26,974 nt of DNA from a virus, in IMG/VR virus record IMGVR_UViG_3300045131_001343, positions 1-26,974 of that record; one strand, written 5' to 3'. Shown here one piece after another: positions 1,763-26,129 of the stretch (position 1 is the first letter of the stretch; the number at the start of each line of letters is the position of its first letter). The notes beneath the pieces were generated by a model. The model saw only the letters and a program-made list of their open reading frames with translations, ran no database searches and had not been told where the DNA came from. A program made the translations under genes and the position numbers.

Positions 1763-2227
1763 ATGGGAGACGGAACTACATATGGTATAAATTTTCCTTT
1801 CAGAGATTCTGTTCGTGGTGACTACTTGGATTTAACCAATACTGCGGGACAAGAAATCAGAGCGGATCTTATTAACCTACTTCTTACTAGAAAGGGATCT
1901 AGATATTTTTTACCTGATTTTGGTACAAGACTCTATGAATATCTTTTTGAACCATTCGATGGTTTAACTTTCGACGCTATTGAATCTGACATCAGATCTT
2001 CAGTCGAAAAATATATTCCAAACTTGTTAATTAATAGATTAACAGTAGAACCTCTAAACCCAGAAGAGGAGGCGGATGACAACGCTTTCACATCAAACTT
2101 ACCAACATCACCTGTTTATAGATACCCTGGAAAGGGAACCGCAGAATATACTGCAAAAATAAAAATAGAATATTCTGTCCAAGACAGTGCATTTGCAACA
2201 AGTGATTTTGTAATTATCAATATTTAA
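1763..2227 (+). CDS. Baseplate wedge subunit, T4 gp25 / GPW family
   Basis: This 154-residue structural protein is of the gp25-like (GPW/gp25) family, which forms part of the inner baseplate wedge and primes sheath assembly in contractile-tailed phages. Diagnostic segments are YGINFPFRDS near the N-terminus, then EIRADLINLLLTRKGSRYF, and LPDFGTRLYEYLFEPFD, which is the classical core of the family. The rest carries acidic residues and ends in a beta-rich segment. It is slightly longer than T4 gp25 (about 132 residues). The start is fixed because the family core begins only about seven residues in; no Shine-Dalgarno is present. The gp6-like gene follows after 5 nt, the usual order of wedge genes. 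Confidence 0.92.
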   Translation: MGDGTTYGINFPFRDSVRGDYLDLTNTAGQEIRADLINLLLTRKGSRYFLPDFGTRLYEYLFEPFDGLTFDAIESDIRSSVEKYIPNLLINRLTVEPLNPEEEADDNAFTSNLPTSPVYRYPGKGTAEYTAKIKIEYSVQDSAFATSDFVIINI

Positions 2228-2232
2228 GATAG

Positions 2233-4071
2233 ATGGCTAATCGTAAGATATCATATACAACCAGAGATTTCGAAGGAATAAGATCAGAACTTATACAATA
2301 CGTTCGTACTTATTATCCTGAATTAATTCAAAACTTTAATGACGCTTCGGTGTTTTCAGTGTTTTTGGATTTAAATGCTGCTGTTGCAGATAATCTACAT
2401 TATCATATTGATAGAAGTATTCAAGAGACAGTTCTTCAATATGCTCAACAAAGATCTTCAATTTACAACATAGCAAGAACTTATGGATTAAAGTTACCGG
2501 GTCAAAGACCTTCAGTTGCTTTAGTTGATTTTTCAATAACAGTACCTGCATTTGGTGATAAAGAGGACGAAAGATACTTGGGACAATTAAGAAGAGGATC
2601 ACAAGTTTTAGGTGCTGGACAAGTTTTTGAAAACGTAGAAGACATTGATTTCGCATCTCCATATAATTCGCAAGGATTTCCTAATAGACTTAAAATACCA
2701 AACTTTGATAGTAGTAATAGGTTGGTTAACTATACTATAACTAAAAGAGAAGTTGTTGTTAATGGTATTACTAAAGTGTTCAAAAGAGTTATTACACCAA
2801 GTGATGTAAGACCATTCTTAGAGGTATTCTTACCTGAAAAGAATGTGTTAGGTGTTACAAGTGTTCTTTTAAAGGATGGTACAAGTTACACAACAGTACC
2901 TACAGTTAATGAATTTTTAGGTTTACAAAATAAGTGGTATGAGGTTGATGCTTTAGCTGAAGATAGAATCTTCATTGAAGACCCGACCAAAGTATCAGAT
3001 CAGCCAGGTATTAAAGTAGGTCGTTATATTCAAACACAAGATAAATTTATTACAGAATATACACCTGAAGGATTTTTAAAGATGACTTTTGGAGGTGGAA
3101 CAAATACAGCCCAAGATGCTCTTAATCAATTTACAACGATGGGAGTTCCTTTAAATCTACAATTATATCAAAACAATTTATCGTTAGGATCCGCTCTTAA
3201 GTCGAATACTACTTTATTCATTCAATATAGAACAGGTGGAGGATTATCAACAAACTTAGGGACCAATGTAATTAATCAAGTTGGAACCGTTTCATTTTTT
3301 GTGAATGGTCCATCAGAATCTACAAACCAACAAGTTGTTGGATCTTTAAGATGTAATAACGTAACAGCAGCTATCGGTGGAGCTGGTCAACCAACTGTTG
3401 AAGATGCAAGAAATTATGTGTCATTCAATTTTGCTTCACAAAATAGAGCGGTAACAGTAAACGACTATGAAGCACTTGTTAGAAAAATGCCATCACAATT
3501 CGGAGCACCTGCAAAAGTTGCAATTACAGAAAACAATAACAAAGTGTTAGTTCAGATTTTATCTTATGATACGTCTGGTAAATTAACATCTATTGTTTCA
3601 AACACATTAAAACAGAACTTAGCAAATTATTTATCAAACTATAGAATGTTGAATGATTATATCTCAATAGAGACCGCTGAGGTTATTGATATTAGTATTG
3701 ATATTGCGGTTGTCTTAGATTCAACTCAGAACCAAGGACAAGTTATTTCAAACATAGTTAATAAGATATCTACTTTCATGGATCCACAGGTTAGACAGTT
3801 AGGTCAAAATATTTATTTAGCCCAATTGAATAGTTTGATTCAAGATGAGAATGGTGTAATTACTGTTGCGGGACTTCAGATTTTTAATGAAGTTGGAGGA
3901 CAATATTCATCAGCACAAACATCAATGCCATATGCTGACGATGAAACAAGACAGATAAGACCTGTTGATGATACCATATTTGCTCAACCAAGTCAGGTCT
4001 ATCAAATTAGATATCCACAGAAGGATATTAGAGTAAGAGTCAAGAACTTCCAAAACGTTTCGTTTACTTAA
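2233..4071 (+). CDS. Baseplate wedge subunit, T4 gp6 / baseplate J-like
   Basis: This 612-residue protein resembles T4 gp6 and the broader baseplate J family, which forms the ring of the inner baseplate. The N-terminus ISYTTRDFEGIRSELIQYVR is typical, as are LDLNAAVADNLHYHIDRSIQE and QRSSIYNIARTYGLKLPG. These helical segments link wedge subunits. A J-like core follows from roughly residue 390 (EDARNYVSFNFASQNRAVTV), including VNDYEALVRKMP. Length is close to T4 gp6 (about 660 residues). It lies 5 nt after the gp25-like gene and is probably co-transcribed with it. Confidence 0.93.
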   Translation: MANRKISYTTRDFEGIRSELIQYVRTYYPELIQNFNDASVFSVFLDLNAAVADNLHYHIDRSIQETVLQYAQQRSSIYNIARTYGLKLPGQRPSVALVDFSITVPAFGDKEDERYLGQLRRGSQVLGAGQVFENVEDIDFASPYNSQGFPNRLKIPNFDSSNRLVNYTITKREVVVNGITKVFKRVITPSDVRPFLEVFLPEKNVLGVTSVLLKDGTSYTTVPTVNEFLGLQNKWYEVDALAEDRIFIEDPTKVSDQPGIKVGRYIQTQDKFITEYTPEGFLKMTFGGGTNTAQDALNQFTTMGVPLNLQLYQNNLSLGSALKSNTTLFIQYRTGGGLSTNLGTNVINQVGTVSFFVNGPSESTNQQVVGSLRCNNVTAAIGGAGQPTVEDARNYVSFNFASQNRAVTVNDYEALVRKMPSQFGAPAKVAITENNNKVLVQILSYDTSGKLTSIVSNTLKQNLANYLSNYRMLNDYISIETAEVIDISIDIAVVLDSTQNQGQVISNIVNKISTFMDPQVRQLGQNIYLAQLNSLIQDENGVITVAGLQIFNEVGGQYSSAQTSMPYADDETRQIRPVDDTIFAQPSQVYQIRYPQKDIRVRVKNFQNVSFT

Positions 4072-12991: not shown

Positions 12992-12998
12992 TATTTAT
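12992..12998 (+). promoter_or_regulatory. TATTTAT box before the second structural block
   Basis: AAACTATTTAT occurs in the 34-nt gap, 17 nt before ATG 13016. The same 11-mer occurs before the giant structural gene. No Shine-Dalgarno lies between the box and the ATG, only A/T-rich sequence. Confidence 0.42.
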
Positions 12999-13015
12999 AG
13001 AAAATAAATTAACAC

Positions 13016-13921
13016 ATGGCTATAGCATCATACGGTACAATCAGACCAGCTGACGTTTCACCTGACGATATGGAGATCATATTGAACTACACTCCGTCAA
13101 GAGACGTTACAAACAATTTTGTACTTAGAAAATTGGACGCTAAAACATTACTAAGACCGTATTTCAGTAATCAAGAAATTGGAGGGTCACCCGTTGAAAT
13201 TTTAGGCGGGTTATACAACCTTACATTGCCGGCAACAGAGTTTAACGCTCTTGGGATTTACACAATGTTGATTAGACCTGCACAAATCAGAACTGCAATC
13301 ATTGATTGTGGTGTTTTAAGTGCATTACCTAACGTAAGAGGAATAATATTGGATTTAACATTAATCCCTCAAGAATATAGAAATAAGTTCACGCCACAAG
13401 GATTAGTTGGATTCAGAATAGAATATTTGAATAGTGATGGAACTAAAGTTCCAAACTTTTTCAGAATTGTAACATCGAATTTTTATTGTGAGCCTGTGGT
13501 TACAAACCAGGTTAACACCCAACAAAAATCTATTCGATACAGATATGTTGATAGTAATTCAAACTTAATGTTTTTAACCTTATCACCATCATCTTCACCG
13601 ACAACTAAACCAAATGCAACACCATATATTGGTCAACCAGACCAAGATATTATCTTATCAAACACTTTCTTCAATCCGTTAACGATTGATATTGAAATGG
13701 TTGAATATGATGTATCATCACTTGCGATAGCTCTTTACGGTAATCAGACTAAGTCTATTGATGACGGTATTTACACTATCTACGACTCCAATAATAACAT
13801 ATACAGACAGTACAACCTGTTTGAAATTAGAGATCAGTTTAATGACCTTCTGTATGAAGTTAGGCAGAATAGAGGTGATAATATCGATTTCAGTAAAAAC
13901 TTTAACACGATTATTAGTTAA
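13016..13921 (+). CDS. Unrecognised structural protein, 301 aa
   Basis: No family recognised. The N-terminus MAIASYGTIRPADVSPDDME is followed by an all-beta region including GLYNLTLPATEFNALGIYTM and VRGIILDLTLIPQEYRNKF. A C-terminal part reads IYRQYNLFEIRDQFNDLLYE, which looks helical. There is no signal peptide or membrane span. It heads the second coupled block, and its stop overlaps the next start (TAATG at 13919-13923). Position directly before the gpI/wedge-like gene suggests a partner in the baseplate periphery or fibre attachment. This is inference from order only. Confidence 0.77.
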   Translation: MAIASYGTIRPADVSPDDMEIILNYTPSRDVTNNFVLRKLDAKTLLRPYFSNQEIGGSPVEILGGLYNLTLPATEFNALGIYTMLIRPAQIRTAIIDCGVLSALPNVRGIILDLTLIPQEYRNKFTPQGLVGFRIEYLNSDGTKVPNFFRIVTSNFYCEPVVTNQVNTQQKSIRYRYVDSNSNLMFLTLSPSSSPTTKPNATPYIGQPDQDIILSNTFFNPLTIDIEMVEYDVSSLAIALYGNQTKSIDDGIYTIYDSNNNIYRQYNLFEIRDQFNDLLYEVRQNRGDNIDFSKNFNTIIS

Positions 13922-16920
13922 TGGCAACAACTCAAAAATATTTCTACCCACCAAGACCAGGATCTGGATTGAATACCTTTTCAGATAACATAGTAGGTTT
14001 ACAACTTACTGATGGAGGAGGTCTTACGCAGGGTAATTTTGAATTTACAACAGCTGTAACCGAAAAGGTTAATAGAAATTTTAACATTGGATCGTTCTCC
14101 GCACCAATAAGTTTGGAGGATATGGATGTTGACCAAATTGCTCAAAGTAGAATTATTTTTGCAAAAGAGTTTAGAGTTTATCCAAATTTGGATTTGAGTG
14201 AAGTTAGTAACTTCTCAATGTATGGATCACTTACCAAACGATTAGAGGTTTCCATAACAAGAATAATTAATCAATTCCCTGCAGCGATAGATGTTAGATA
14301 TGTAAACTTACAATCTACAACAGGATTTACGGCTGAAGATATTTCTTATGATAGTATTAACAATGAAACTTTCTTTAGGGTTAATACGGAAAGATTAGTT
14401 AATCCTTTCGATATTGATTACTCAATATCTGCAGCAACAAACATAATTGCTCGAGAAATTGTTACATCTCCGTTGAGAAATATGAACCAAACTTATTTGG
14501 ATTATTGTATTGCGGTTTTGGATGCTAATAACGAACCTGACATTTATAAAGTTAACTCGTTTACACCTTCTGAAAGTTTATCTTCAGGATTAATAGAATT
14601 TTATGTCTCAGGCGCACCATTCGGAACTACGGCAAGTACAGTGGTAAGTAACTATCAAATTAGACCTAACGATTTAGTTGTTGACCAAGTTTTTGCGGAA
14701 GTATTCGATGAGGTCGAGAAATTTTTATTGAATAGATTGGTTGAACCACCATATACTGCTGTTTTCCAAATACCTTCTGAAACTGAAAATGGTCAATTCA
14801 CTACGAGTATAAGTACGGCTACATGGCCTTTAGATGGTCCTTGGAATTTGGATATCAGAACTCCGTCATTCGATTTATACCTTGAACAAATTAATAAGAT
14901 TGCCATTGATTTTGACATATACAAAACAGATCTCTTATCAAGATTTTTAACACAAGAGTCGTTTAAAGAATTTGATACGAGAGATAGAAAAGTTGAAAAG
15001 ATATTACAAATTTATGGTAGAAGTTTTGATGAGATAAAGAAGTTTATTGATGGTATGGCAAACATGACATCGGTAAATTACAATATAGGTAATAATGATA
15101 TTCCTTCATTATTGTTAAAAAACTTAGCCGATACATTAGGGTGGGAACCTAATATATCTCCGATAACAAATGAGAATTTTTTAGATTCAATTTTTGGAGA
15201 TACAAACACGCCTACGTTTCCTGGTTACGCTAGAGGACTAACGCCAACTGAATTAAATTATCAATATTATAGAAACTTAATATTAAATGCGGGATATCTT
15301 TTCAGATCAAAGGGTACAAGAAGATCTGTTGAGTTTTTGCTAAGATTGGTTGGAGCTCCTGATTCAGTTATTGAGTTTAATGAGAATATCTATCTTGCGG
15401 ATCAGAAGATTAATATGGAGCAGTTCACAACGCAATTTGCTAGAATCTCTGGCGGAACTTATGCAGATGATGTACCGGGATTATCTCCAACAAATGTTTA
15501 TAGAATACAAGGTCAAACTTTTACAGGATTTACGTCAACAACATTTTACGAAAACGTTACTTTAGAAGAGGCGGATTATCCTGTTGATATTGAAGGATAT
15601 CCAAGGGCACCAATACCAACTGAAGACTTCTTCTTCCAAAAAGGGGCAGGATGGTATCAACAAACGCCACAACATAGAAGTCCTGCATTACCTGTTAGTG
15701 TTGCAACATTTACAGGTGCTAACACTGATGTTCAAACAAATTTAGAACCTTTTACATATGGTCAGATTTATCTCGAAAGATTTAGAGACTTTCCGTATAT
15801 GACTGAAGGGTTTAAATTACAAAAAACAATTGATAATAAAAAGTCATGGGTTTCTAATGATGAAGACTTAAGAATTGCCACAGATGCAGGATATGAATCA
15901 TATTACTATTTGGATAGTGAGAAACTAGTGTTGAACGTTAAAAATGTGGATCTCTTCCTTAATCCAGGACAAGGGTTAACGTATGATGTTTGGGTTCAAT
16001 CAAGAAGTTACGATTACCCAATACCTGAAACAGGAATGACTAGCCCATATCCAACAATAGGAGGAGTAGACTGGACATTTATTAATCCAGAACCAAAGAA
16101 GAAAACCTTCTTCGAATTCGCCCAAACATTTTGGCAAAATACGATTAATGTAAGAAACAGAATGTATATCACAGACGGACATACCGGAGGATATCCAACT
16201 CTTTCATCGATATTTTGGAAATATCTAGAACAAGAACAAACAATTGGAATACCAAACAACCAATACACTTACCAAAAGTTAATTGATTATGTAGAAGGAC
16301 TTGGTCCTTATTGGATGAAGTTAGTAGAACAAATGATTCCGGCCACAACAATATGGAATTCAGGAACAAGATTTGAAAATTCTATTTTTCAAAAACAAAA
16401 GTTTGTTTATAGAAGACAAAGAGGTTGTCAGTTTGTACCTGTACCTGCTGATGCTTGTTATATCATTGGGAATGTATTCAATTACGATTGTTCAACAGAA
16501 TTTGTTGAATTTGCGGTATTCCCTTGGTTAAATGGTGATTCGTCTGTTTCAAATTTTAATGGAATTCTTTCTAATAGATTACAAAATTTCTTGAGTGAAA
16601 GTGGACTTACATTAAATGATTGTATTACAAGTACATTACAAACTCAATGGGTTGTTGAAATGAAATTAGGTGATGAGTATTTAATTTATGAACCATTCTA
16701 TAATGGAAATGGTCTAAATGATGTACCATCAAGAAGTATGTGGAAGAATGCGGTTGGGGAGTATTTGGATAATCTATATGATTATGGGTTGAATTACTTC
16801 GTTAACGGTAATATATTGAATGTAACGAATATGGATTGTGTGCCAAAGAATTTGAATAGTACCCTGAGCTTAAATGTGGGGATAAACATTAGTATAAGTT
16901 GCGATAGTGGCATCATTTAA
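13921..16920 (+). CDS. Baseplate/tail protein with P2 gpI-like wedge segment, 999 aa
   Basis: Residues about 334-484 hold a helical region with DRKVEKILQIYGRSFDEIKK, LADTLGWEPN, and YRNLILNAGYLFRSKGTRRS followed by VEFLLRLVGAP. This resembles the core of phage tail protein I (P2 gpI, Tail_P2_I) and related wedge proteins that connect the baseplate to tail fibres. The assignment is by motif memory, not by a search. The rest is beta-rich. Residues about 800-999 include a cysteine-containing stretch (RRQRGCQFVPVPADACY) and a final module with FYNGNGLNDVPSRSMW that resembles the C-terminus of the next protein. Length is far above P2 gpI (under 200 residues), so it is probably a multi-domain wedge or fibre-connector. 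The start is coupled to the previous stop (TAATG). Confidence 0.82.
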   Translation: MATTQKYFYPPRPGSGLNTFSDNIVGLQLTDGGGLTQGNFEFTTAVTEKVNRNFNIGSFSAPISLEDMDVDQIAQSRIIFAKEFRVYPNLDLSEVSNFSMYGSLTKRLEVSITRIINQFPAAIDVRYVNLQSTTGFTAEDISYDSINNETFFRVNTERLVNPFDIDYSISAATNIIAREIVTSPLRNMNQTYLDYCIAVLDANNEPDIYKVNSFTPSESLSSGLIEFYVSGAPFGTTASTVVSNYQIRPNDLVVDQVFAEVFDEVEKFLLNRLVEPPYTAVFQIPSETENGQFTTSISTATWPLDGPWNLDIRTPSFDLYLEQINKIAIDFDIYKTDLLSRFLTQESFKEFDTRDRKVEKILQIYGRSFDEIKKFIDGMANMTSVNYNIGNNDIPSLLLKNLADTLGWEPNISPITNENFLDSIFGDTNTPTFPGYARGLTPTELNYQYYRNLILNAGYLFRSKGTRRSVEFLLRLVGAPDSVIEFNENIYLADQKINMEQFTTQFARISGGTYADDVPGLSPTNVYRIQGQTFTGFTSTTFYENVTLEEADYPVDIEGYPRAPIPTEDFFFQKGAGWYQQTPQHRSPALPVSVATFTGANTDVQTNLEPFTYGQIYLERFRDFPYMTEGFKLQKTIDNKKSWVSNDEDLRIATDAGYESYYYLDSEKLVLNVKNVDLFLNPGQGLTYDVWVQSRSYDYPIPETGMTSPYPTIGGVDWTFINPEPKKKTFFEFAQTFWQNTINVRNRMYITDGHTGGYPTLSSIFWKYLEQEQTIGIPNNQYTYQKLIDYVEGLGPYWMKLVEQMIPATTIWNSGTRFENSIFQKQKFVYRRQRGCQFVPVPADACYIIGNVFNYDCSTEFVEFAVFPWLNGDSSVSNFNGILSNRLQNFLSESGLTLNDCITSTLQTQWVVEMKLGDEYLIYEPFYNGNGLNDVPSRSMWKNAVGEYLDNLYDYGLNYFVNGNILNVTNMDCVPKNLNSTLSLNVGINISISCDSGII

Positions 16921-19078
16921 TTATAATATCAATATAACGGGAGATTGTCAGAACAATGGTTCTGGTGTGATACAAGTTGGATTCTCTGGCGGAACTCCAC
17001 CATACACCATTGCATGGGCTCCACCGATAAATTCATCATTTGTTTTAATTTATGATTTTAATCCATTTAGTGCGACAACTAGTTATCAAACGTATAATAC
17101 GGTATCAAATCTTTCGGCTGCGACATATTCCTTTAGAGTAAATGATTCAACTGTTCCAACTAACTTAGAATTCGATGTTAACGTTCCAATATCTTCAGGA
17201 AATTGTACGAGTATTATTGATGTGTCAGCCACAACATGTAACACTAATAGTGGAAGTGTTACTGCGGATGCGAGTAGTGACTTTAGTGAAACAGAATATT
17301 ATCTGTATACTTCGGATGACGAATTAGTTCAATCGGGGTTAACGGGTCTAGGATTATTTACATTCCAAAATCTTTCTGCGGGAACGTATTTTGTAACAAG
17401 TGTTGATTACGGTGGGTGTACAGGAACTAGCTCAACGTTTATTGTTAATGATTCAGTTGAAGTTGATTTTGGATTTTACCCTGTGGATGATACACAATGT
17501 GGTCAAGCTTCCGGAAAAATTATAGTTACGGGACAAACAGGAGTACAACCTTTTACTTATCAATGGAATGATGGATCAACAGGAAGTACTTTATCTGGTT
17601 TAACTGCTGGAACATATTCGGTTAAAGTTACGGATGCAACAGGATGTTCTAAAATAAAAGAACAATCAATTGGACAGATTGATCCTGTTGGTTTAGGTGC
17701 TTTTACGATTGACTTGATTCCAACTTGTTTAAATGCCGATGGAGTATTAACTATGACGATTACAGGTGGAACTGGTCCATACTATTATTCGGCCTCCACA
17801 GGAGCAATTGACGTTAGTTATGCTCAAAGTTTTTCATTGTCAGGAATTCCTGCAGGATCTTATGTTTTTTCAGTTACTGACGCTGCTCTATGTAAATTTA
17901 CTACGGGTGTTGATGTTGCCACTGAAAATGGAATTTCAGACATCATTTTGGAGGTTAATCCTTCTTTCTGTAGTAATGCTGACGGATCGATATTGGTGAC
18001 CGCCTTGGGAGGTACATCACCATTTACGTATACTTTAATTTATCCTGATGGATCAACATATTCAATAAATTCAAATGCAGCTTCATATACCTTCTCTGAA
18101 TTAACGGGTGGTACTTATACTGTGATATTAGAAGATGCCTCAGGATGTTACTTTTTAAATGAAAGTGCAATACTTTCACAAAATACTTTTACAATAACTG
18201 CATCAACAACAGGAACAACATGTGCAGCTAATAATGGAACCATTGTTGTTGAAAAATCAGTGGGTGGAACTTCACCGTTTGATTACTCTTTAGATGGGAT
18301 ACAAAATGTTATCGATACAACTGCAAGTGCTGTTACGTTTTCTAACGTAAGCTCGGGTCAACATACGATATCTGTTACCGATGCCTCAGGATGTACTCAA
18401 ACGCAACAAGTGTTTATAACACCAAGTACACCATTAGTTTACAATTTATACTCAACTTCGTGTGGACAAGGATCTGAAGGAACAATAACCGCATTCATAT
18501 CTGATGGAATTCCTCCATTTACATATGATTGGTCAGATAATGTTGATTCAAACCCACAACAAATCAAAGTTACGGGTTTAACTGCCGGTACTTACTCTTT
18601 AACTGTTTTAGATTCAAGCGGATGTTCTCAAACAAGAACAACAATTATTGACTGTGATAAAACATATGTGTCGTATCAATCTTATGTAATGGGAGCTGAA
18701 CAATTTAATTTAGTGTCTCCAACAAAGAGAGGAATTTTACAAATGTTGAATGAAGGATTTGATGATTTAACCACAGGAAATACAAATTGTGATCTAATTA
18801 CCACTGAATTTTATGCGAAAGTACAAGTTCAGCCGATTGGAATTGTTTTAGACCAATTATTTTTCACAGGAACAAGTTTAATTCAACCACCATCCGATAG
18901 TTTGTGGTATTCTACTATAGAATCTATGTTAGAAAGTATCTATGGAATAGGAAATGTAACTGTAAATCAGTTAACAAATGAAATAACCATAGAAACAGAT
19001 AGAAGTGAAACATCACTTAATGGTCAAGAAGTAATTATCGAACTAATTATAGTATACGATATTATGTGCTTGACATGA
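16907..19078 (+). CDS. Structural/adhesin-like protein with seven SprB-type repeats
   Basis: 723 residues from a GTG start that overlaps the previous gene by 14 nt. It is built of seven related modules of about 55-75 residues. Each has the form C...G-x-I.V...GG-x-x-P[FY]-x-Y...L-x-[AG]-G-x-[YH]-x-[FV]-x-V-x-D-x-[ST]-G-C, for example GLTAGTYSVKVTDATGC in module 3. This is the SprB repeat pattern known from the Flavobacterium gliding adhesin SprB and other Bacteroidota surface proteins. Residues about 600-723 form a non-repeat C-terminal domain similar to that of the preceding protein. There is no signal peptide or type IX sorting domain, which is expected for a virion component rather than a secreted adhesin. 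It is likely a tail decoration or host-contact protein. Confidence 0.85.
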   Translation: MASFNYNINITGDCQNNGSGVIQVGFSGGTPPYTIAWAPPINSSFVLIYDFNPFSATTSYQTYNTVSNLSAATYSFRVNDSTVPTNLEFDVNVPISSGNCTSIIDVSATTCNTNSGSVTADASSDFSETEYYLYTSDDELVQSGLTGLGLFTFQNLSAGTYFVTSVDYGGCTGTSSTFIVNDSVEVDFGFYPVDDTQCGQASGKIIVTGQTGVQPFTYQWNDGSTGSTLSGLTAGTYSVKVTDATGCSKIKEQSIGQIDPVGLGAFTIDLIPTCLNADGVLTMTITGGTGPYYYSASTGAIDVSYAQSFSLSGIPAGSYVFSVTDAALCKFTTGVDVATENGISDIILEVNPSFCSNADGSILVTALGGTSPFTYTLIYPDGSTYSINSNAASYTFSELTGGTYTVILEDASGCYFLNESAILSQNTFTITASTTGTTCAANNGTIVVEKSVGGTSPFDYSLDGIQNVIDTTASAVTFSNVSSGQHTISVTDASGCTQTQQVFITPSTPLVYNLYSTSCGQGSEGTITAFISDGIPPFTYDWSDNVDSNPQQIKVTGLTAGTYSLTVLDSSGCSQTRTTIIDCDKTYVSYQSYVMGAEQFNLVSPTKRGILQMLNEGFDDLTTGNTNCDLITTEFYAKVQVQPIGIVLDQLFFTGTSLIQPPSDSLWYSTIESMLESIYGIGNVTVNQLTNEITIETDRSETSLNGQEVIIELIIVYDIMCLT
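16928..18631 (+). repeat. Seven SprB-like protein modules
   Basis: Modules fall at about residues 8-82, 107-172, 195-248, 271-330, 351-415, 436-498 and 516-575 of the 723-residue protein. Shared marks are a leading Cys, GG-x-x-P[FY] in the middle and a closing T-D-A-[ST]-G-C. The first module lacks the closing Cys. The modules are divergent at DNA level, so this is an old expansion rather than a recent tandem duplication. Confidence 0.8.
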
Positions 19079-19506
19079 CAAGAATAGAAATTTCAGCAGT
19101 TACGGGGGGATCATATCCCATTAATGTTTATGTCTCTGATTATTACGGTAATTACGAGACATTAATCTATACTATTACTTCAGGTAATACGATACCTCCT
19201 GCGACAGGTGCTACATTATCTTCAACTTTTGCAACCGCTCCTGCCATTTTACTTAAAATGGTTGATGCTAATGGTTGTGAAAAAATTGAATTGTTAGAAT
19301 GTAGATTTGGATGTTCTTTCTTAATAACAATACAAGAAGGTTCTTGTGTTACGGATATTAACATTCAAACATCAAGTTGCCTTGTTGGAGGATTGGCGAT
19401 TGTTGAGGCAAGTTGTGTTACAACATTAAGCATTGCAGACCCGTCATGTGACTATAATTTGGTCGTTGGAGGACCATCATGTGTAACTAATTTGGTCATA
19501 ACATAA
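19075..19506 (+). CDS. Small structural protein ending in an 11-residue Cys-spaced repeat
   Basis: 143 residues from ATG 19075, which overlaps the previous stop as ATGA. A GTG three codons upstream (19066) is possible but less likely. Residues 1-75 form a beta-rich module (IEISAVTGGSYPINVYVSD, then LKMVDANGC) that resembles a single SprB-like or Ig-like unit. From residue 80 to the end the protein is six short units, each starting [GS]-C, with cysteines spaced 11, 11, 12, 11 and 11 residues. It ends within the sixth unit. It is likely a partner of the SprB-repeat protein. No family is recognised. Confidence 0.75.
   Translation: MTRIEISAVTGGSYPINVYVSDYYGNYETLIYTITSGNTIPPATGATLSSTFATAPAILLKMVDANGCEKIELLECRFGCSFLITIQEGSCVTDINIQTSSCLVGGLAIVEASCVTTLSIADPSCDYNLVVGGPSCVTNLVIT
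19312..19503 (+). repeat. Six-unit 11-residue Cys repeat
   Basis: The unit pattern is C-x-x-x-[LI]-x-[IV]-x-x-x-[SG], for example CVTDINIQTSS, CVTTLSIADPS and CVTNLVIT. Regular Cys and aliphatic spacing suggests short beta-strands stacked with a ladder of cysteines, as in a beta-solenoid or beta-roll. This is inference from pattern only. Confidence 0.65.
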
Positions 19507-19566: not shown

Positions 19567-21096
19567 ATGGCCCTTTACTCTATATTCGTCGTTAACACCG
19601 CCCCAGGTTGTGATAATGAAATTGAACAACAACTTTCTGTTTCAGGATGTACTAATTACATCATCCGTTTAGCGTCAAACTCGAACGCTCTAGGGCCTTT
19701 TGATGTATTTTATTCTATATTTCCGATAGGTCTTACAGGAGCTACTTTGGCATATTCTGCTGTTACAAGATACGACATGTTCAACGGAGTAGTAGTTTCC
19801 ATAGAATGTGTGACACCAACACCAACTCAAACACCAACTCAAACAAATACACCTTCAATATCAGCAACGGTTGGAACATCTCCAACACCGACAGAAACTC
19901 CAACACAAACACCAACTTTAACACAAACACCGACAAATACATCAACACAAACACCAACTGAAACCCAAACTCCAACAGTAACCCAAACTCAAACACCAAC
20001 AAATACTGAAACACCAACTCAAACACCAACACCTAGTATAACTGCGTCTGAAACTCAAACACCAACACCTAGTATAACTGCGTCTCAAACTCAAACACCT
20101 ACGCCTAGTATAACTGCGTCTCAAACTGAAACACCTACACAGACTCCAACAATGACGCAAACACCTACAGTGACTCAAACGCCAACTCCAAGTATTACAG
20201 CATCTCAAACTCAAACACCAACTCCAAGTATTACACCAACAAATACAGAAACACCAACTAATACACCAACAGAGACTCCAACTAATACGCCAACAAATAC
20301 CGAAACACCAACTAATACACCAACAGAGACTCCAACCAATACGCCAACAAATACAGAAACACCAACTGTAACACCTACCGAAACACCAACTAATACGCCA
20401 ACAAATACAGAAACACCAACTAATACTCCAACAGAGACTCCAACTAATACACCAACTAATACCGAAACACCAACACAAACTCCAACTGAAACACAAACTC
20501 CAACACCTACACCTTCATCTACACCACCTGCATTAAAGGCTTACATAATATTAGATCAAGGTGATGTAAATGCAAGAAATAATTTAAGTGCATGGATGAC
20601 ATCTCAAGGAAGTAGTTGGAGAGGATTTAATACTGTTCCTACTTCACCGTCAATAAGTCAAGAAACATTCGACGCACAGATGAATGCATACTTAAGTTAT
20701 CCAGGGTGGGGTATTTACGAACCGGCAATTATCGAGGCACCAATATCAACAACAAGTGGAGGTAATGACGCTTATGGAAATCCAATTGAAGCTTATAAAT
20801 TCCAAACTACTCAAATACCTGTCGGAGCATTCTCTGCAACAAGTTGGGTGATGGTATTCGTTGCTACAGGATCTACAAACGGACAGAAATATTCAACGGT
20901 TAAAAACGGTACGTCAGCGGGTTCAATGACCTCTAGAGTTATGAATACAAATTATAATAGTTTGGTGATAAATTATTCTGGAACTACAAATATTCCTACA
21001 GGAACATATAAAATGTATTCAACTTTCGCAGGAACATCGTTCCAATTGAGTACAGGGTTCTTACCTAACTATATCCAAGGAGGGACATTAGTTTAA
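19567..21096 (+). CDS. Putative tail fibre/adhesin with Thr/Pro-rich stalk, 509 aa
   Basis: Three parts are visible. Residues 1-82 form a small beta-rich head with three cysteines (GCDNEIE, SGCTNY, SIEC). Residues 83-321 are a low-complexity stalk of TPT-x-TPT-x-T type ([20 protein letters not shown] and variants such as [12 protein letters not shown]). Residues about 322-509 form a globular C-terminal domain ([20 protein letters not shown], later [20 protein letters not shown]) that could be the receptor-binding part. The stalk resembles extended mucin-like linkers of surface proteins. It lacks the D-[ST]-[aliphatic] motif used by Bacteroidota O-glycosylation. The start follows a TATTTAT box with an A-rich leader. 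Fibre function is inferred from architecture and position. Confidence 0.8.
19813..20529 (+). repeat. Thr/Pro-rich low-complexity stalk
   Basis: 239 residues, mostly T, P, N, E, Q and S. The later half (from about 20230) is a regular alternation of [10 protein letters not shown] and TPTNTETP units encoded by ACA/ACT/ACG/ACC and CCA/CCT/CCG codons. The DNA is a degenerate ACNCCN repeat. The Thr codon third base varies freely, so selection seems to act on the peptide. Confidence 0.85.
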
Positions 21097-21158: not shown

Positions 21159-24100
21159 ATGAGTTTTCAATACAAAAATCCAACGTCAGACACTATAATC
21201 GCGGGACCTTTTTCGGTAGAAAGAGAATCTGATAGTGGTGTTAATTTTAGTGTAAATACAATTGGTGGATACCAAGAAGTATGGAGCTTGGCCGATTTAA
21301 ATTGGGTAATCCCAAACGATGTAAAAATATCTGGAGGACAAGTTCTCTATTCAGGTAACACTATTCCAATTTCATTTGTGTATGGTGGAGATGGTCCGGC
21401 ACCAATATTTAGTCAATTAAATATTAATAACGATGGAATATCTTCAGGTAGAAGAAGATTGGGAATGTTGGTTTTTGTTCAAGAAACGCAATTAACTTAT
21501 CAATATACAATTCCTAACTACGCAAGTATATGGAATGTTGCTCAAACAGATGGTGACATATTTGATACAGGGTTAACTTATCAAGTAACAAATGGAGATG
21601 CGGGTGGACAAGCATTACAAAATGCTTGGACAGGATCAACAATTGAGGGTGTTAGTGGTGTTACAAGAGAAAATGCTAGATGGAGAATTGCCAATTTCAA
21701 TGACACTTCAATTACAGGAGGAACTTATTTTTCGGCAACAACAACCTTAGATTTATATGATAGTGATGGTGGAACTGTTACAATTACAGGATTTACAGGA
21801 ACTGTAACAGGAGGAACTTACAATAGTGGAACTTCAACTTTAACTTTAAATAATAGTGATGGTACTGAGGTATCGATTACGGGAATTACTTCAGGATCAG
21901 GTTCAGCCTTATCTGTTGGAGATGGTACGACAACAGTAAATCCTGTTTCAGGAATTACATTTAGTGGTGCAACAGTTGTTAACGATGGTGATGGAAATAT
22001 TACAGTAGTAATAACTGGCGGTACTTCAGGAACTAGTGGATCAAATGGTACAGACGGTTCATCAGGAACTAGCGGTTCTAACGGAACGGATGGTTCATCA
22101 GGAACTTCAGGTTCTAATGGTACAGACGGTTCATCAGGAACAAGTGGTAGTAATGGTACAGACGGTTCATCAGGAACAAGTGGTAGTAATGGTACAGACG
22201 GTTCATCAGGAACTAGCGGTTCTAACGGAACGGATGGTTCATCAGGAACTTCAGGTTCTAATGGTACAGACGGTTCATCAGGAACTAGCGGTTCTAACGG
22301 AACAGATGGTTCTTCAGGAACAAGTGGAACTTCTGGAGTTAGTGGTATTGATGGAACATCAGGAACTAATGGTTCTTCAGGGACATCAGGAACTAATGGT
22401 TCTTCAGGTTCTTCAGGTTCAAACGGAACAGACGGTTCATCAGGAACATCAGGAACATCAGGTTCTAGTGGTATAGATGGTTCTTCAGGAACATCAGGTT
22501 CTAGTGGTATAGATGGTTCATCAGGAACATCAGGTTCTAGTGGTATAGATGGTTCATCAGGAACTTCTGGATCTAACGGAACAGATGGTTCGTCAGGAAC
22601 TTCTGGTTCTAATGGTACAGATGGTAGTTCAGGAACTAGCGGTTCTAACGGAACAGACGGTTCTTCAGGAACATCAGGTTCTAGTGGTATAGATGGTTCA
22701 TCAGGAACATCAGGTTCTAGTGGTATAGACGGTTCTTCAGGAACTAGTGGTTCTAACGGTACAGACGGTTCTTCAGGAACTAGTGGTTCTAACGGTACAG
22801 ACGGTTCTTCAGGAACTTCAGGTTCAAATGGAACAGATGGTTCTTCAGGAACTAGTGGTGTAGACGGATCAAGTGGTACATCAGGTTCCTCAGGAACTAG
22901 TGGTGTAGACGGATCAAGTGGTACATCAGGTTCTAATGGTACAGACGGTTCATCAGGAACATCAGGTTCTAATGGTACAGACGGTTCATCAGGAACATCA
23001 GGTTCTAGTGGTATAGATGGTTCTTCAGGAACTAGTGGTGTAGACGGATCAAGTGGTACATCAGGTTCTTCAGGAACTAGTGGTGTAGATGGTTCATCAG
23101 GAACTTCAGGTACAGACGGTTCTTCAGGAACAAGTGGTTCTAGCGGAACTGACGGTTCATCAGGAACTAGCGGTTCTAACGGAACAGACGGTTCATCAGG
23201 AACTAGCGGTTCTAACGGTACAGATGGTTCTTCAGGAACTAGTGGTGTAGACGGATCAAGTGGTACATCAGGTTCTAATGGTACTGACGGTTCTTCAGGA
23301 ACAAGTGGTTCTAGCGGAACTGACGGTTCATCAGGAACTAGCGGTTCATCAGGAACTTCTGGTTCAAATGGAACAGATGGTTCTTCAGGAACTAGTGGTA
23401 TAGACGGTTCTTCAGGAACGAGTGGTAGTAATGGTACAGACGGTAGTTCTGGTACTTCAGGTATAGATGGTTCATCAGGAACTTCAGGTGTAGATGGTAG
23501 TTCAGGAACTAGCGGATCTAGCGGTACAGATGGTTCTTCAGGAACTTCTGGTTCAAATGGAACAGATGGTTCTTCAGGAACTAGTGGTATTAGTGGTGTT
23601 GATGGAACTGATGGTAGTTCTGGTTCTTCAGGAACAAGTGGTATAGATGGTTCATCAGGAACTAGCGGTACAGATGGTAGTTCAGGAACAGATGGTTCTT
23701 CAGGAACTAGCGGATCTAATGGAACAGATGGTTCTTCAGGAACTAGCGGATCTAATGGTACAGATGGTTCTTCAGGAACTAGCGGATCTAATGGTACAGA
23801 TGGTAGTTCAGGAACAAGTGGTATAGATGGTTCATCAGGAACTAGCGGATCTAATGGAACAGATGGTTCTTCAGGAACTAGCGGTACAGATGGTTCTTCA
23901 GGAACTTCTGGATCTAATGGTACAGATGGTAGTTCAGGAACTTCAGGTTCAAATGGAACAGATGGTTCTTCAGGAACGAGTGGTATAGACGGTTCTTCAG
24001 GAACGAGTGGTAGTTCTGGCACTTCAGGTATAGATGGTTCATCAGGAACTTCAGGTTCTAACGGTACAGACGGTTCATCAGGAACTTCAGGTTCTAACGG

Positions 24101-26129
24101 TACAGACGGTTCTTCAGGAACTTCTGGATCTAACGGAACGGATGGTAGTTCAGGAACAAGTGGTATAGATGGTTCATCAGGAACTTCAGGTTCTAACGGT
24201 ACAGACGGTAGCTCAGGAACATCAGGTTCAAGTGGTACATCTGGTTCAAGCGGAACATCAGGTTCAAACGGAACAGACGGTACATCAGGATCAAACGGTA
24301 CAGACGGAAGTTCTGGTACTTCAGGATCAAACGGTACAGACGGAAGTTCTGGTACTTCAGGAATAGATGGTTCATCAGGAACATCAGGATCTAATGGTAC
24401 AGACGGAACTTCTGGATCTAATGGAACGGATGGTACATCAGGTACAGATGGTACATCAGGTACAGATGGTACATCAGGATCAAACGGTACAGACGGTACA
24501 TCAGGATCAAACGGTACAGACGGTACATCAGGATCAAACGGTACAGACGGTACATCAGGATCAAACGGTACAGACGGTACATCAGGAATAGATGGTTCAT
24601 CAGGAACATCTGGAACAGATGGAACTTCAGGTACATCAGGTATAAGTGGTGTAAACGGAACAAGTGGAACAAGTGGATCAAACGGAACAAATGGTAGCTC
24701 AGGTACATCAGGTTCATCAGGAACTTCAGGTAGTTCAGGTTCAAGTGGAACAAGTGGTTCTAACGGAACAGACGGTAGCTCAGGTACATCAGGATCAAAC
24801 GGAACAGATGGTTCTTCAGGAACTTCTGGATCTAACGGAACAGACGGTAGTTCAGGTACATCAGGATCAAACGGAACAGATGGTTCTTCAGGAACGAGTG
24901 GTAGTAATGGTACAGACGGAAGTTCTGGTACTTCAGGAATAGATGGTTCATCAGGAACATCAGGTTCAAGTGGTACATCTGGTTCAAGCGGAACATCAGG
25001 TTCTTCAGGAACGAGTGGTAGTAATGGTACAGACGGTTCTTCAGGTTCAAGTGGTACATCTGGTTCAAGTGGTACATCTGGTTCAAGCGGAACATCAGGT
25101 TCTAACGGAACAGACGGATCAAGTGGTACATCAGGTTCTTCAGGAACTTCAGGATCTTCAGGAACAAGTGGATCTAATGGTACAGATGGTAGTTCAGGAA
25201 CTAGCGGTTCATCAGGAACTTCAGGTTCAAGTGGTACGTCAGGATCTAACGGAACAGACGGGTCAAGTGGTACATCAGGTTCTTCAGGAACTAGCGGTTC
25301 ATCAGGAACTTCAGGTTCAAATGGTACAGATGGTAGTTCAGGAACTAGCGGTTCTTCAGGAACTTCAGGTTCAAGTGGTACGTCAGGATCTAACGGAACA
25401 GACGGGTCAAGTGGTACATCAGGTTCTTCAGGAACTAGCGGTTCATCAGGAACTTCAGGTTCAAATGGTACAGATGGTAGTTCAGGAACTAGCGGTTCTT
25501 CAGGAACTAGCGGTTCATCAGGAACTTCAGGTTCAAATGGTACAGATGGTAGTTCAGGAACTAGCGGTTCTTCAGGTTCATCAGGAACAAGTGGATCTTC
25601 AGGAACATCAGGTTCATCAGGAACTTCTGGATCAAGCGGTTCTTCAGGAACTTCAGGTTCATCAGGAACTAGTGGAGCTGCAACAATTAACAATAATGTA
25701 AACAATTATTTATTAACAGCAACTGGTACAAATGGACTGATTGAAGGAGAAGAGAATCTACAGTTCAACGGAACTCATATGAGTTTAACGGGAAATACGA
25801 TTCAAATTGGAGACGAATTTATTAGCTCTGAGTCAACATCATCAGTAGGTAGTGGTACATCAACTATATCCACAATACCTGTTTCATCAGGAAATTCAGC
25901 GATATATGATTATTATGTGTCTGATGGTACAAATAGAAGGGCTGGTACAGTTATCGCAGTTTGGGACGGAAGTACTTCAACATTTACTGAATACTCAACA
26001 CCTGATTTAAATGGTTCAACGGCTGGAATATCATTTGGTACGACAATAAGTGGAGGAAATATACTTCTTCAGTCTATCGTAACAGCAGGAACATGGACAA
26101 TTAAAGTTGGATCAAGAGTAATATTCTAA
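21159..26129 (+). CDS. Giant tail-fibre-like protein with proline-free Gly-X-Y shaft, 1,656 aa
   Basis: Residues 1-287 are a beta-rich N-terminal region with repeated GGTY-x-S-x-T-[ST]-T-L-x-L strands (SITGGTYFSATTTLDL; VTGGTYNSGTSTLTLNNSDG). Residues 288-1505 are about 406 unbroken Gly-X-Y triplets in which X and Y are only S, T, N, D, I and V, with no proline. Residues 1507-1656 form a C-terminal cap with NNYLLTATGTNGLIEG and DYYVSDGTNRRAGTVIAVW, ending SGGNILLQSIVTAGTW then TIKVGSRVIF. The cap looks like fibre-tip domains of marine phages, by memory. This head-shaft-tip plan is that of a long tail fibre. An intrinsic terminator follows. The long antisense frame opposite the shaft is a by-product of the repeat. 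Confidence 0.87.
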   Translation: MSFQYKNPTSDTIIAGPFSVERESDSGVNFSVNTIGGYQEVWSLADLNWVIPNDVKISGGQVLYSGNTIPISFVYGGDGPAPIFSQLNINNDGISSGRRRLGMLVFVQETQLTYQYTIPNYASIWNVAQTDGDIFDTGLTYQVTNGDAGGQALQNAWTGSTIEGVSGVTRENARWRIANFNDTSITGGTYFSATTTLDLYDSDGGTVTITGFTGTVTGGTYNSGTSTLTLNNSDGTEVSITGITSGSGSALSVGDGTTTVNPVSGITFSGATVVNDGDGNITVVITGGTSGTSGSNGTDGSSGTSGSNGTDGSSGTSGSNGTDGSSGTSGSNGTDGSSGTSGSNGTDGSSGTSGSNGTDGSSGTSGSNGTDGSSGTSGSNGTDGSSGTSGTSGVSGIDGTSGTNGSSGTSGTNGSSGSSGSNGTDGSSGTSGTSGSSGIDGSSGTSGSSGIDGSSGTSGSSGIDGSSGTSGSNGTDGSSGTSGSNGTDGSSGTSGSNGTDGSSGTSGSSGIDGSSGTSGSSGIDGSSGTSGSNGTDGSSGTSGSNGTDGSSGTSGSNGTDGSSGTSGVDGSSGTSGSSGTSGVDGSSGTSGSNGTDGSSGTSGSNGTDGSSGTSGSSGIDGSSGTSGVDGSSGTSGSSGTSGVDGSSGTSGTDGSSGTSGSSGTDGSSGTSGSNGTDGSSGTSGSNGTDGSSGTSGVDGSSGTSGSNGTDGSSGTSGSSGTDGSSGTSGSSGTSGSNGTDGSSGTSGIDGSSGTSGSNGTDGSSGTSGIDGSSGTSGVDGSSGTSGSSGTDGSSGTSGSNGTDGSSGTSGISGVDGTDGSSGSSGTSGIDGSSGTSGTDGSSGTDGSSGTSGSNGTDGSSGTSGSNGTDGSSGTSGSNGTDGSSGTSGIDGSSGTSGSNGTDGSSGTSGTDGSSGTSGSNGTDGSSGTSGSNGTDGSSGTSGIDGSSGTSGSSGTSGIDGSSGTSGSNGTDGSSGTSGSNGTDGSSGTSGSNGTDGSSGTSGIDGSSGTSGSNGTDGSSGTSGSSGTSGSSGTSGSNGTDGTSGSNGTDGSSGTSGSNGTDGSSGTSGIDGSSGTSGSNGTDGTSGSNGTDGTSGTDGTSGTDGTSGSNGTDGTSGSNGTDGTSGSNGTDGTSGSNGTDGTSGIDGSSGTSGTDGTSGTSGISGVNGTSGTSGSNGTNGSSGTSGSSGTSGSSGSSGTSGSNGTDGSSGTSGSNGTDGSSGTSGSNGTDGSSGTSGSNGTDGSSGTSGSNGTDGSSGTSGIDGSSGTSGSSGTSGSSGTSGSSGTSGSNGTDGSSGSSGTSGSSGTSGSSGTSGSNGTDGSSGTSGSSGTSGSSGTSGSNGTDGSSGTSGSSGTSGSSGTSGSNGTDGSSGTSGSSGTSGSSGTSGSNGTDGSSGTSGSSGTSGSSGTSGSNGTDGSSGTSGSSGTSGSSGTSGSNGTDGSSGTSGSSGTSGSSGTSGSNGTDGSSGTSGSSGSSGTSGSSGTSGSSGTSGSSGSSGTSGSSGTSGAATINNNVNNYLLTATGTNGLIEGEENLQFNGTHMSLTGNTIQIGDEFISSESTSSVGSGTSTISTIPVSSGNSAIYDYYVSDGTNRRAGTVIAVWDGSTSTFTEYSTPDLNGSTAGISFGTTISGGNILLQSIVTAGTWTIKVGSRVIF
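24477..24584 (+). repeat. Four perfect 27-bp tandem repeats
   Basis: Four identical copies encoding GSNGTDGTS lie at 24477-24503, 24504-24530, 24531-24557 and 24558-24584. The identity of synonymous sites, unlike the surrounding shaft, points to recent slippage or recombination. Confidence 0.9.
25212..25508 (+). repeat. 144-bp tandem duplication (48 residues)
   Basis: The segment 25212-25364 is identical to 25356-25508, an offset of 144 bp (four 36-bp units). The first difference upstream is 25211 A versus 25355 T. Synonymous choices such as GGTACGTCAGG and GACGGGTCAAG are shared, indicating a recent in-frame duplication. Confidence 0.85.

Follow-up and report, generated by a model that had tools for sequence, protein, structure and literature searches.

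The gene at positions 16907–19078 of the window, by which we mean the whole 26,974-base virus record that was analysed, itself a fragment, encodes a 723-aa protein consisting of seven Ig-like modules of the SprB repeat family and a C-terminal domain. The reading we favour, and hold to be probable, is that this protein is a conserved virion stalk between the baseplate and variable receptor-binding tips in large T4-type myophages, probably of Bacteroidota. The seven non-identical modules would form a rod of fixed length at the tail-fibre/baseplate periphery, which we infer to be carried on the virion with one end facing outward. The C-terminal domain, which is related to the C-terminus of the 999-aa protein encoded just upstream, would most likely dock or oligomerise at the baseplate. 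Receptor recognition would most likely fall to later parts, such as the tips fused after TP-rich linkers in some relatives; in the window, the candidates are the separate downstream TP-repeat and GSSGTSG-repeat fibre proteins. Features are listed in Table 1.

Table 1. Features of the window, with positions counted from its first base.
Feature	Position	Strand	Remarks
gp25-like baseplate wedge	1763..2227	+	profile match
gp6-like baseplate wedge (Baseplate_J)	2233..4071	+	profile match
TATTTATA, late-promoter-like motif	12992..12999	+	24 nt ahead of gene 13016; inferred from its biased placement in three relatives
301-aa protein	13016..13921	+	most conserved of the block, 68–99% identity
999-aa conserved baseplate-block protein	13921..16920	+	gene directly 5' of the SprB slot; last ~150 aa are homologous to SprB-protein aa 584–723
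SprB-repeat protein gene	16907..19078	+	723 aa; GTG start; orthologs begin at the same residue
Module 1	16907..17206	+	aa 1–100; ~20-aa stretch absent from about half of orthologs
Module 2	17207..17455	+	aa 101–183; outside the six stretches placed by Pfam SprB
Module 3	17456..17698	+	aa 184–264; Pfam SprB and family profile
Module 4	17699..17935	+	aa 265–343; Pfam SprB and family profile
Module 5	17936..18184	+	aa 344–426; Pfam SprB and family profile
Module 6	18185..18430	+	aa 427–508; Pfam SprB and family profile
Module 7	18431..18655	+	aa 509–583; Pfam SprB and family profile
C-terminal alpha/beta domain	18656..19075	+	aa 584–723, 140 aa; remote homolog of the 999-aa protein's C-terminus
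146-aa protein	19066..19506	+	one SprB-like module in the homologs from L046–L048 and L049
TP-repeat linker protein	19567..21096	+	putative tip domain at C-terminus
GSSGTSG-type low-complexity repeat fibre protein	21159..26129	+	1656 aa, mostly GSSGTSGxDG repeats

In a Pfam search, SprB (PF13573) matched the 723-aa protein in six stretches with E = 2.8e-24 and 84.9 bits, about threefold above the curated cut-off of 28 bits, and the same family was matched by all 20 of the 20 aligned orthologs. A profile of the phage family resolved seven modules at aa 1–100, 101–183, 187–261, 271–343, 345–427, 427–511 and 509–583, each with a domain E ≤ 3e-18; since this profile includes the window's own module sequences, it delimits the modules and is no independent test, and Pfam scoring, which is independent of it, found six of the seven. 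The modules are about 80 aa long, are 19–41% identical to one another, and usually contain a cysteine with a glycine a few residues on, a GGTxPYxY turn and an LTAGTYSVTVTDxxGC ending. Y_Y_Y and BiPBP_C each matched one stretch with scores barely over their cut-offs, as expected of an Ig-like fold. The seven SprB-type modules described in an earlier note on this DNA were thus recovered, and the profile search proposed there matched SprB itself and not just a generic Ig-like family. The C-terminal domain (aa 584–723) is absent from that note. Tandem Repeats Finder reported no array inside the gene, and a recent tandem duplication of the modules was rejected on that result.

AlphaFold modelled the full protein as seven beta-sandwiches and an alpha/beta C-domain with a pLDDT of 79; the pTM was only 0.32, so that the geometry of the rod is not reliably predicted. 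The closest solved structure in a Foldseek search was GhpA, the Aureispira grappling-hook protein (E = 2e-20), with many Ig-domain and macroglobulin-type proteins of eukaryotes ranking behind it, and profile searches gave weak, single-module matches to the neck-whisker protein gp24 (9occ, E = 2.8e-4) and to T5 pb10 (5lxk, E = 0.0043). These matches describe a generic Ig-like fold whose sequence is of the SprB type. The gp24 and pb10 matches, and a match of aa 181–251 to the Hoc-like head-decoration family PHROG 3945, also fit a different kind of protein, a Hoc-like decoration or neck whisker whose Ig-like array on the head or neck would stick weakly to surfaces. Hoc of T4 has the same plan, a string of Ig-like domains with a conserved C-terminal docking domain (PMC10385173), and a head location may be compatible with the Ig part of the sequence. 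However, all the decoration and whisker matches are limited to the Ig modules, with the C-domain outside them, and the gene overlaps the 3' end of the 999-aa baseplate-block gene by 14 nt, has its C-domain in common with that gene and lies behind it in 45 of 45 loci. We therefore regard a head or neck protein as unlikely.

The gene lies in a stretch that contains, in order, the end of a ribonucleotide reductase gene, the gp25-like and gp6-like wedges, large proteins without assignment and the SprB gene itself, with the 146-aa, TP-repeat and 1656-aa GSSGTSG-repeat proteins 3' of it. A long antisense open frame within the last of these (21818–25705 in 21159–26129) is probably a consequence of the repeat composition. 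Searches of IMG/VR returned 45 loci with a single-sequence query and at least 578 confirmed relatives with an alignment query, and in each of the 45 loci the genes 5' of the SprB gene stood in the same order, even where identity falls to 33%. Longer relatives, the largest of them reaching 326 kb, encode a gp23-type capsid, a contractile sheath, for which matches were mostly just under the family cut-off, and a terminase; judged by this gene content, these phages are T4-type myophages. The placement of the gene in a tail/baseplate block, as had been claimed, is confirmed by the two wedge genes in the window and by the capsid, sheath and terminase genes of the longer relatives, and a phage structural protein with a host-contact role, as also suggested, is plausible for SprB-type modules sitting in a baseplate/fibre block. 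None of three neighbouring proteins had a relative among 50,697 annotated phage records, and the lineage thus appears to be uncultured. Five relatives (L046, L047, L048, L051 and L052) carry a second gene, of 524–541 aa, with two SprB-like modules, and G002:295388–297877 encodes an 829-aa counterpart of it.

The motif TATTTATA, which is the reverse complement of T4's TATAAATA, has copies at 12992, 21135 and 26219 in the window. In three relatives (G002, G004 and G005), 38 of 97, 18 of 32 and 20 of 52 occurrences, respectively, lie 10–29 nt before an ATG, and the motif is likely to serve this lineage as a late promoter. The copy ahead of 13016 suggests that genes 13016, 13921, 16907 and 19066 probably form one late unit starting near 12992. 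Bacteroidota promoters (TTTG-N17-21-TAnnTTTG) were found upstream of genes six times in G002 against 0.7 expected and were not clearly enriched in G004 and G005; sigma70-like sites were enriched alongside them, and the promoters give no consistent pointer to the host. No match to the conserved 301-aa protein was obtained in 297 Bacteroidota genomes, in a search run without a positive control.

The number of modules is constant. Of 105 viral orthologs, 104 have exactly seven; the remaining one has six, and its contig breaks off within the gene. When 139 modules were placed in a tree, the copies from each of the seven positions grouped as one clade over nine divergent phages (SH-aLRT 87–99); the alignment had only 83 columns, and many of the deeper forks are unresolved. 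The thirteen modules of a protein from the phage LR756502, unlike those of the window, grouped mainly with one another, and cellular SprB arrays, again unlike the window's, contain near-identical repeats. On the fixed number and the positional clades, we read the window array as one whose assembly predates the divergence of these phages and which has since been neither shuffled nor re-duplicated. The earlier note had suggested that the phage captured host surface modules. As a recent event this is rejected by the fixed module number, the ancient divergence and the positional orthology; an ancient acquisition from Bacteroidota is possible, and the module tree does not decide the source. The cellular relatives found are just 23–29% identical to the phage protein.

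Between the window and a 93%-identical relative, dN/dS was 0.09 for the SprB gene, indicating purifying selection, and 0.03–0.07 for its upstream neighbours. Values for modules 1–6 were 0.03–0.16, and module 7, almost without synonymous change, was uninformative. Relative to L008, synonymous divergence within window 18431–19506 was 0.02 in module 7, 0.12 in the C-domain and 0.14 in gene 19066, compared with 0.3–1.4 in modules 1–6; gene 13016 was also low (0.13). Module 7, the C-domain and gene 19066 look as if they had been exchanged recently by recombination.

The C-domain, modelled alone, reached a pLDDT of 82, and Foldseek found no solved structure for it in the PDB below E = 0.001 and no meaningful match. 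Its alignment by hhalign with the C-terminus of the 999-aa protein covered the whole domain length (135 columns, E = 2e-5, probability 77). With either profile as query against every open reading frame of the window and of several relatives, the partner protein ranked next after the query's own family (best E = 0.0016). No BLASTP match linked the SprB protein to the 999-aa protein, so the common domain is visible by profiles only, and a PHROG search with the 999-aa protein gave no convincing identity. The homology is remote, and we read the C-domain as a putative docking or assembly module common to two adjacent structural proteins.

The position behind the 999-aa gene was surveyed in 80 loci found via the 999-aa protein, of which 11 lacked the array but had little downstream sequence left, leaving 69 to be assessed. 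The SprB array lay directly 3' of the 999-aa gene in 62 of these, complete with seven modules and C-domain in 56 and cut by a contig end in 6. In the other 7 of the 69 a different protein occupied the slot, several being long with TP-rich linkers, and both of the two that were scanned contained von Willebrand A (VWA) domains. The slot is thus exchangeable. Fibre-slot proteins at L203:8940–14942 and L237:8982–14930 combine TP-rich linkers with one to three VWA domains (DxSxS motif). Beyond the C-domain, at least ten SprB orthologs continue with TP-rich linkers, most of these then ending in sequence-variable tips. This location of the variation beyond the array argues that the array is the stalk and that the tips or downstream fibres would recognise the receptor. 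The repeat-rich tips that follow the TP linkers in L019, L020 and L100 have a beta-propeller look by eye (YNPxxNxxY repeats); a Pfam scan of the L019 and L100 tips gave no match.

The opposite assignment gives receptor binding to the SprB modules, as mimics of Bacteroidota adhesins that bind polysaccharides or host adhesins, possibly the gliding SprB filaments. The sequence family is common to Bacteroidota surface proteins, flavobacterial gliding mutants can resist phages, SprB having been suggested as a receptor (PMC13288928; PMC7345892), and module 1 combines the highest nonsynonymous divergence among the modules with a length-variable stretch. Set against this, the array is the conserved part of the locus, under purifying selection, and variability lies in the C-terminal tips and downstream genes; the host, too, is only probably a member of the Bacteroidota. 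Nor are SprB repeats specific to gliding. Among the genomes sampled, 20 of 99 from Bacteroidota and none of 14 controls contained them, the F. johnsoniae genome had 53 matches distributed across several open reading frames, and such repeats have been reported in a fucoidanase (PMC7698502) and in T9SS substrates adjoining toxin genes (PMC7073777). Taken together, these points make receptor-binding modules improbable.

A product outside the virion, secreted as an adhesin that modifies the host surface, would be in keeping with the usual exposure of SprB-repeat proteins on the cell surface, and the 642-kb phage LR756502.1 does encode a protein of this kind with export signals. The N-terminus of this 1670-aa product (L007:12553–17565) resembles a signal peptide, the chain contains 13 SprB repeats together with a PKD domain, and the type IX secretion signal CHU_C scores 52.6 bits (cut-off 27); the gene lies near topoisomerase II genes, outside any recognisable tail block. 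It is apparently a phage-encoded, T9SS-exported surface protein, and this combination in one protein may be more surprising than the window's array. A 476-kb viral contig (L253) encodes a C-terminal domain related to that of the LR756502.1 protein. In the 723-aa protein of the window, the N-terminus (MASFNYNINITGDC), read directly from the sequence (MASFNYNINITGDCQNN), has no hydrophobic segment or recognisable signal peptide, TIGR04183 scored 9.8 bits against a cut-off of 23, CHU_C gave no match, a Por_Secre_tail match was internal and under cut-off, and the gene keeps a constant place in a structural block. Secretion is thus the least probable explanation, with hardly any weight.

The link to gliding drawn in the earlier note is not supported. 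With the repeat spread over many different Bacteroidota surface proteins, a fucoidanase and T9SS substrates among its carriers, and with no recognisable export signals on the phage protein, the SprB repeat suggests a Bacteroidota connection and not gliding. An annotation of 'SprB repeat' is no evidence of gliding. In phages of gliding hosts, the seven-module rod might bind the host's T9SS adhesin filaments, and the gliding machinery would then catch the virion and move it over the cell before injection; the literature on SprB and the gliding machinery in phage adsorption keeps such a homotypic interaction in view, as a very unlikely case.

The stalk reading can be set beside several known proteins. 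The phage modules belong to the same sequence family as the PF13573 repeats of Bacteroidota surface proteins, but each phage module position is individually conserved and not recently duplicated. F. johnsoniae SprB has thousands of residues and bears both an export signal and a C-terminal domain for type IX secretion, whereas the phage protein has 723 aa and neither signal. A database entry, A0A6J5LD72 (714 aa, 'SprB repeat [uncultured Caudovirales phage]'), probably belongs to the same family, its C-domain superposing at a TM score of 0.81 with 23% identity; the name is an automatic UniProt annotation, and the repeat in such phages is thus already on record. We found no study of this family in the literature on SprB repeats in phages. 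GhpA of Aureispira (PDB 9flp, 9fly and others), the nearest solved structure, is a cellular Ig-like-domain protein. It is giant, and only 15–20% identical to the phage protein. We know of no phage role for GhpA. What the phages add is that a family otherwise typical of Bacteroidota surface proteins appears as a rod of constant make-up and old divergence in hundreds of large uncultured phages, and the slot filled by VWA-domain proteins in some relatives offers a natural comparison by which stalk, docking and receptor-binding parts could be told apart. Phage virions with Ig-like modules are known, and the origins and roles of these modules are mostly unclear. The gp24 and pb10 proteins have a weak, single-module likeness to the SprB protein but different virion positions and architecture, and Hoc, although similar in plan, has three modules on the head against seven in a tail block, with no detected similarity between the C-domains. 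The SprB array is a variant of these known Ig-like arrays on phage virions.
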